Shown here: piece after piece, positions 5,901 through 6,217 of the stretch
Layout of the letters: each line of letters opens with the position of its first letter
How positions within the stretch are numbered: the stretch's first letter is position 1
The notes under the pieces: generated by a model
Told to the model about the DNA's origin: nothing
What the model saw: only the letters and a program-made list of their open reading frames with translations
Database searches by the model: none
Translations under genes and position numbers: made by a program
Source: Rikenella microfusus DSM 15922
GTDB taxonomy: Bacteria > Bacteroidota > Bacteroidia > Bacteroidales > Rikenellaceae
NCBI RefSeq assembly: GCF_000427365.1
Contig: NZ_KE386488.1
Coordinates: 868,001-932,000 of the forward strand
Length of the DNA: 64,000 nt
Direction of reading: 5' to 3'

Positions 5901-6217
5901 GGTTCGTTTGTCCGTACATTTTAGTTTGAGGCAACCGTTCTTTCTTTGAAAAGAAAGAACCAAAGAAACTTTGTGAAGCTCCGCTACGCCTTAGGCTCCG
6001 CAATCCTTTTGCATTGCGAATCCTTTTGTGTTATCGGAACAGGGGGTTGCGATTATTTCCTGATTAGCCCCCTGTTCCGATAACACAGACCTGTCGAAGA
6101 CCAAGGTACCCGGCAGGCCCAGGAGATGCGAAGCATCTCAAAAAGTTTTTCTGGTTCTCTTTGTTCACAAAGAGAACAGTCGCCTCGAACCTGAACAGTA
6201 CAAATAAACGAACGGTT
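5901..6217. repeat. intercistronic palindromic element A1 (mutA-mutB)
   Basis: About 317 bp. Terminal arms are GGTTCGTTTGTCCGTAC and GTACAAATAAACGAACGG. Inside are hairpins GTTCTTTCTTTG/AAAGAAAGAAC (about 5938-5961), a 19-bp perfect central stem (6028-6046 with 6068-6086), GAGATGCGAAGCATCTC, and GTTCTCTTTGTTCACAAAGAGAAC. The mutA stop codon TAA is fused to the right terminus (TAACCGTTCG on the minus strand). The left end stops 16 nt before the mutB ATG. Confidence 0.9.

Follow-up and report, generated by a model that had tools for sequence, protein, structure and literature searches.

Modular or nested hairpins in intergenic DNA are known from the BOX elements of pneumococcus and from mitochondrial double-hairpin elements, neither of which is, to our knowledge, related in letters to the elements described here, referred to as family A. 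REP and BIME sequences (PMC3733652, PMC2817692) resemble family A as small extragenic palindromes that occur in many copies and form mosaics in alternating orientation. MITEs, including those of Porphyromonas gingivalis (PMC4596501), are likewise non-coding and dispersed, carry terminal inverted repeats and leave some orthologous sites empty. PIT/TMECO repeats share the intergenic location and the order of pyrimidine arm, loop, purine arm, short linker and purine third strand, and they at times occur as inverted pairs (PMC4666352). The PIT/ITxF motif of order Y-R-R is defined as a pyrimidine stem, a loop of 1-6, a purine stem, a loop of 1-6 and a mirror third purine stem of 6-15 nt (PMC4666352), and PIT/TMECO repeats have been linked to sequence differences among strains (Holder et al. 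2015, PMC4666352).

The window analysed here is a stretch of 64,000 nucleotides (G000:C2:868001-932000) from a genome of 2.88 Mb, and it contains six family A blocks, A1 to A6 (Table 1). The original prediction held that six blocks share terminal arms with their inverse and that the intact copies share an ordered series of internal hairpins. All six were read and the common arms proved real; A1, A2, A5 and A6 are intact and do have the hairpin series in common, A4 bears inserts and A3 is decayed. Intact elements measure 317-326 bp, within a family range of 300-600 bases. The outer arms of A2 (TTCGATTATCG..CGATAATCGAA) carry a paired T/A change. A4 is a family A element with long extra modules, one of them within the loop of the GTTCTCTTTG hairpin, and its orientation relative to its genes is opposite to that of A1, A2, A5 and A6. 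A3 aligns with the A6 query at the arms alone (36.5 bits).

Table 1. Family A elements and their parts, in window coordinates, and members of a second palindromic family, in coordinates of G000:C2. G-numbers denote genomes (G000, own genome) and L-numbers fetched loci; the strand assigned to A1 is the one on which the GTTCTCTTTG hairpin reads first.
Feature	Position	Strand	Context or composition
A1, intact element	5901..6217	-	between mutA (methylmalonyl-CoA mutase small subunit) and mutB (large subunit)
A1 end module b	5937..5972	+	hairpin GTTCTTTCTTT/AAAGAAAGAAC and purine tail CAAAGAAACTTT; model R1 match
A1 P4 hairpin GAGATGC..GCATCTC	6123..6139	.	
A1 end module a	6142..6177	-	hairpin GTTCTCTTTGT/ACAAAGAGAAC and tail CAGAAAAACTTT
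A2, intact element	16723..17042	-	flanked by two co-directional genes; paired T/A change in outer arms
A2 end module b	16759..16794	+	model R1 match
A2 end module a	16968..17003	-	
A3, decayed member	21811..22280	-	thiC-queD gap; outer arms retained, module remnants within
A4, member with nested inserted modules	46314..46914	-	between lspA and response-regulator gene
A4 end module b, hairpin part	46353..46376	+	
A5, intact element	58094..58418	+	between lipoprotein-like gene and PepSY_TM-like gene; 97% identity with A6
A5 end module a	58134..58169	+	
A5 end module b	58344..58379	-	model R1 match
A6, intact element	63425..63750	-	aspS-ftsY gap; query of genome searches
A6 end module b	63464..63499	+	model R1 match
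A6 central stem P6	63552..63620	.	23-24 bp, loop included in span
A6 P4 hairpin GAGATGC..GCATCTC	63654..63671	.	
A6 end module a	63674..63709	-	
Second palindromic family, L179-L186	G000:C2 near 223205, 316971, 1250857, 1650707, 192681, 350819, 514995, 526398		

The family extends well beyond the window. A BLAST search with A6 located about 45 places in the own genome, and 7/7 other genomes of the genus contain DNA that matches A6. Near-identical copies are dispersed, with A6, L002 and A5 at 96-97% identity. The terminus AAYCGTTCGTTTATTYGTAC matched the genome 57 times in forward and 60 times in reverse direction at up to 3 mismatches, compared with 1 and 0 matches for the backwards pattern; these 117 matches overcount family A, since part of the 3-mismatch termini (AACCGTACG...) belong to the second palindromic family. 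The latter is located in intergenic regions of greater length; its ends read TTTAACCGTACG and it has GGCCTCC..GGGAGGC-type hairpins. Model R1, which represents the end module, has 90 matches in the own genome. Single-strand folds of A6 (z = -12.3) and A2 (z = -10.4) were each equalled in stability by 0/100 shuffles.

The view that the blocks carry no credible protein stands, as the longest open stretches of A3 and A4 (127-200 codons) gave no Pfam match, even at E = 1. They were also said to belong to no named RNA or repeat family. In the Rfam search of the window at gathering scores, a tRNA was the sole match and the elements fell below every gathering threshold, while at E up to 5 they gave chance-like miRNA/sRNA matches, far under gathering. 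A literature search on Alistipes/Rikenellaceae repeats, Bacteroidetes palindromic repeats and the module letters, with subscription journals mostly outside its coverage, found no description of family A.

Read with the GTTCTCTTTG hairpin first, an element runs from a P1 arm (TTAAYCGTTCGTTTATYYGTAC) through module a, built of a hairpin (GTTCTCTTTGT/ACAAAGAGAAC) and a tail (CAGAAAAACTTT), and the GAGATGC..GCATCTC hairpin to the centre stem; it continues through AAAGTTTCTTTGG and hairpin b (GTTCTTTCTTT/AAAGAAAGAAC) to the closing P1 arm. The outer inverted arms begin TTAAYCGTTC, and the two end modules lie in inverted orientation. The tail of module a can pair with the strand before b, forming a P3 stem in which 91.7% of cells are paired. 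The centre stem measures 20-24 bp and encloses an exchangeable loop of 19-30 nt. Among the 41 copies fetched from the own genome, 31 have recognised modules of both kinds at opposite ends, one of type a and one of type b (26 b1, 5 b2), 5 have only b, 4 only a and 1 neither.

Extra modules lie in the loop of hairpin a or beside P3 in nine of the 41 copies (L006, L010, L024, L026, L029, L061, L062, L066, L068), and the module in the a loop was found in both orientations (L006 and L024 versus L026 and L029). A nested module AACTTCGCTACGCTCG..GACGCTGCCAGCG, placed in the loop of hairpin a in either orientation and sometimes holding a further module, was seen at window positions 46600-46870 (inside A4) and in L006, L024, L026, L029, L185, L189 and L190.

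Pairing is well conserved. Hairpin a, hairpin b and the GAGATGC hairpin show 100% pairing in 28/28 intact copies, and a and b have two doubly changed pairs each; P1 is the least well paired helix of these copies, at 87.2%, with 5 of its 20 pairs doubly changed. When the whole structure was compared with 500 shuffles, the observed share of paired cells and the covariation score were reached by none and the number of doubly changed cells by 5; no excess was found in doubly changed pairs (reached by 70/500) or pair types (422/500). The main alignment puts the centre stem in the wrong place, and this stem was therefore anchored separately. Pairing is 98.7% over its 18 distinct stems, with double changes at 14 of 17 pairs, whereas the partner-swapped control gave a mean of 66.9% and a maximum of 81.7% in 1000 trials. 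The comparison supports the retention of stems through double changes, as judged from the letters of the copies. L018 has a centre loop that is the exact reverse complement of the one in L016, and the loops of L013 and L008 are reverse complements at 95%, which suggests that loops flip between the palindromic arms. The long a-b hairpin pairing of the minimum-energy fold was rejected as a general feature, the letters of a and b being unrelated in several relatives.

The end modules obey a further symmetry. A finder that required only a perfect hairpin rich in pyrimidines and, after it, a purine tract and CTT was run on own and genus loci; it returned 22 exact module versions that fall into 12 arm types. 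In 12/12 types, a section of the purine arm of the hairpin recurs mirrored in the tail tract, over a length of 5-7 nt (8 types have 6-7 nt and the other 4 have 5 nt). The summed mirror match is 70, compared with 62 in direct order and 57.4 for shuffled partners, and 0/20000 shuffles reach 70; after collapsing to 11 distinct combinations it is 64 against 52.6, again with 0/20000 shuffles reaching it. A third strand in the major groove requires mirror rather than inverted symmetry, with R.R-Y on one strand and Y.R-Y on the other. By their letters, the end modules appear to conform to the rule for intrastrand triplexes (PIT/TMECO motifs), and their mirror symmetry predicts that they would fold as triplexes in single-stranded DNA or RNA. 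The commonest b modules agree with the PIT/ITxF Y-R-R definition, and not every type does; the linkers GGGACCC and GGTACCC are 7 nt long (by eye), just beyond the published window of 1-6. The TMECO consensus CCCTCNCCC..GGGNGAGGG..GGGNGAGGG is absent from the 12/12 module types, which are A/T-rich and have other letters.

The mirror rule was also seen in other genera, in G025 (GTTCCTTTCTT/AAGAAAGGAAC/CCAAAGAAC) and G031 (CTACTTTCTTTTA/TAAAAGAAAGTAG/CAAAGAAAAG); many further matches of the same search consist of A only and are uninformative, and one in G020 fits better in direct order. In G031, a compact element recurs at about ten places (e.g. C2:3256-3446, C4:29331-29523), its end modules inverted and separated by about 160 nt. 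A similar hairpin-plus-tail was found at 7 places on an Ilyobacter polytropus replicon and at 2 places in Caballeronia. An AAAGAAA hairpin (GTTACTTTCTTT..AAAGAAAGTAACC) with a similar purine tail also occurs in other phyla, at L219:1501-1543 (Ilyobacter polytropus), L220:1001-1041 (Caballeronia) and in 23 viral-contig stretches.

A family with neither function nor transposition, in which palindromes propagate themselves by template switching (as replication errors) and recombination at hairpin-prone sites, could account for the palindromic letters seen at all levels, the flips of loops and the inserts nested in loops. This origin is highly improbable: it leaves the mirror rule of all 12 types unexplained, since template switching yields inverted, not mirror, repeats, and the near-identical copies at distant sites would require copying between loci.

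The position of the elements was judged relative to genes called with a simple codon-usage gene caller. Co-directional genes flank 36 of the 41 own copies (4 are in divergent and 1 in convergent gaps), against a mean of 26.0/41 under a null of 42 element-free window gaps weighted by length (P = 0.00035). Stop-start fit was measured in 32 of the 36 co-directional copies, leaving out 3 partial copies and L007 and with three gaps corrected by hand. The AT-rich terminus includes the upstream stop codon in 19/32 copies, the downstream start follows 3-15 nt beyond the element in 21/32, and the residual stop-start gap outside the element has a median of 13 nt (n=32), compared with about 334 nt for length-weighted random gaps. 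Among TTAA sites of the window outside elements, 2/39 are at stop codons, and on this ground TTAA targeting was rejected as the sole cause of the stop-codon fit. Several of the occupied junctions belong to recognisable operons. The flanks of mutA-mutB and thiC-queD were identified by NCBIfam and those of aspS-ftsY by Pfam; argG-argC, pta-ackA, pccB-accC, ppi-pheS, metK-ywlC, clpX-purB and the RND junction are presumed names, judged from protein letters. Transcription probably passes through the elements within operon mRNAs, since an element ending transcription in such operons would be harmful. In the 36 co-directional copies, 22 read a-first and 14 are reversed; a group II intron or splicing RNA was set aside, either orientation being present between co-directional genes.

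Across the taxonomic family, model R1 has matches in 18/61 genomes and 8/22 genera, with 90 in the own genome, 25 in G003, 10 in G004, at least 113 each in G005 and G006, 86 in G007 and 1-69 in the others. Under a stricter threshold, the own genome alone matched among 197 class genomes, a sample with few close relatives. A scan for named orthologues based on FtsY gave 80 loci, only 2 of them from Alistipes. A first set of orthologous junctions comprised 30 site-genome pairs and covered 6 sites of the own genome. One or more end modules of family A were present in 17/30, P1 arms with another interior in 3/30 (pta-ackA in G002; pccB-accC in G002 and G005), and neither module nor arms in 10/30: mutA-mutB in G002 and G004, pta-ackA in G004, argG-argC in G003, aspS-ftsY in G004, and ppi-pheS in G002, G003, G004, G005 and G007 (5/6 genomes read). 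The RND junction is empty in G003. A second set of 20 stretches, picked mostly by gap length, contained family modules in 2 (lspA in G005, clpX-purB in G002), the rest being other mosaics or empty. The resulting occupancy of 19/50 is in excess of the roughly 3-5% of co-directional gaps expected to be filled in each genome, a figure obtained by hand from the gene density of the window; the sites are not a random draw.

At pccB-accC, where family modules are present in 4/6 relatives read, the insertion point is equal within about a nucleotide in the own genome, G002, G003, G004 and G005, and is shifted onward by a few nucleotides in G001 and G006. The mutA-mutB spacing is 83-190 nt in ten genomes outside the genus, compared with 399 nt in the own genome by the same measure. 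At this junction, G002 (L153) has about 370 nt resembling an open reading frame in place of the element, and G004 (L150) has a 30-nt gap, TAACCCGATACGCGAACCC, which may be the scar of a deleted element. Other, longer palindromic mosaics, of up to about 1 kb and with ends such as GGTTCGGTTA..TAACCGAAC, stand at the same operon junctions in G005 and G002 (L207, L209, L202, L211).

The contents of the sites behave differently from the sites themselves. In pairwise BLAST comparisons of 23 elements, copies of the same species at different sites had a median of 272 bits (n = 42), those at the same site in different species 101 (n = 25) and those different in both 121 (n = 186); orthologous elements are thus no more alike than random ones. 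Site contents would reflect either conversion within a genome or refilling of the site. In 13/25 same-site pairs, by hand count, the better match is on the opposite strand, and whole elements flip in orientation at the same site between species.

These observations bear on a dedicated cis-acting intercistronic RNA, selected at each site for processing, stability or translational coupling, spread by duplication when the genus was young and kept alike by gene conversion. Such an RNA would fit the strong co-directional bias with its tight stop-start fit, the double changes in stems, and the pccB-accC insertion point, (nearly) the same in the own genome and 6/6 relatives. The mixed orientation, the flipping at the same site between species and the many orthologous operons devoid of the element argue against it, and it is distinctly unlikely.

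Near-identical dispersed copies and empty orthologous sites are signs of mobility, and we infer that the family is or was mobile. The means of movement was sought among three transposase families. Y1_Tnp (PF01797, RAYT) was found in 0/8 genus genomes and in 5/14 control genomes, and a RAYT/REP origin was rejected on its absence; DDE_3 and DDE_Tnp_1 were likewise missing from 8/8 genomes, and IS630-type and IS4/IS5-type partners were rejected. Gene calling in 20 regions with an unpaired terminus noted no autonomous or transposase-bearing copy. A phage or plasmid origin was rejected too: A6 had no match among phages or plasmids, and viral_contigs lacks the exact pattern of module a. Flanking TTAA is weakly enriched as a matched pair, in 12/42 cases against 7.3 expected (p = 0.006 for the strongest of 35 symmetric combinations of offset and length), and could be no more than a piece of the arms. 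No clear target-site duplication was found, the paired TTAA being inseparable from the arms.

The blocks had been suggested to be a structured intercistronic RNA, a MITE-like element, or both. This suggestion is supported in part. The repeat family, a structure evidenced by double changes and the intercistronic placement were upheld. The MITE-like part holds for terminal inverted repeats, non-coding content and many copies, shows no clear target duplication, and fails for a partner transposase with matching ends among the three families in 8 genomes. Ordinary MITEs, deletion derivatives of insertion sequences whose transposase is or was elsewhere, with the intercistronic position a matter of survivorship after other insertions were lost, are a rival reading. 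Inverted termini on units of 300-350 bp, copies as alike as A6, L002 and A5, and empty sites such as those at ppi-pheS (5/6), aspS-ftsY (G004) and the RND junction (G003) all suit them. Nevertheless, this derivation is unlikely in view of the absence of the three transposase families from 8 genomes, the lack of any noted copy flanking a transposase, and modular interiors that differ between species at the same site; moreover, a preference for TTAA would not by itself lead to the fit at stop codons.

On balance, we consider it somewhat probable that family A consists of intercistronic mosaic palindromes (BIME/BOX/MITE-like), dispersed among operon gaps, co-transcribed, and tolerated or kept by means of a closed outer stem. 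Copies would spread, by some form of transposition or recombination, into AT-rich sites of TTAA/TAA type located at stop codons, the content of an occupied site would later be overwritten by gene conversion or re-insertion, and loops would invert between palindromic arms. The element would be co-transcribed with its operon and its RNA would fold back on itself, the closed outer stem leaving the upstream stop and the downstream start about 10-20 nt apart, so that an insert of 320 nt would barely disturb the operon. Keeping stop and start adjacent in this manner would explain why position and arm pairing are kept while letters change.

A more specific and doubtful version regards the elements as structure-bridged operon spacers, in which a letter-variable outer stem and triplex-forming end hairpins would keep an insert of several hundred bases closed. 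Ribosomes, or reinitiation, would meet the stop beside the start, the junction would act as a lasting docking site whose contents are exchanged and inverted time and again, and the bridge geometry alone would be selected.

The mosaic palindromes represent an intergenic repeat family bound to the precise interval between stop and start in working operons, and a case of an insertion site outliving its own content. Their mirror-repeat rule covaries between module types, and nature thus supplies a graded set on which intrastrand triplexes and structure-bridged translation could be tested. Several features go beyond the original prediction: the close fit of stop and start, the triplex-type mirror ends, the inversions of loops and of whole elements, and the persistence of sites with exchanged content.

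Compared with the known systems, REP sequences are described with a GTAG or CGTC tag (PMC3733652), whereas the arms of family A end in TTAAYCGTTC and its units are much longer. REP/BIME are mobilised by RAYT, and the genus of family A has no RAYT (Y1 transposase) in 8/8 genomes. Unlike MITEs, family A has no partner transposase found among the three families searched for, no clear target duplication and a modular, exchangeable interior. TMECO is G/C-rich, with a single 9-nt consensus, and its description reports no operon bias (PMC4666352); the modules of family A, in contrast, are A/T-rich, differ in letters between at least 12 versions and stand at either end of an intercistronic element of 300-600 bp. 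Overall, family A is a family of composite intergenic palindromes, set apart by its placement in operon gaps, by mirror ends in many versions and by persistent sites with exchanged content.
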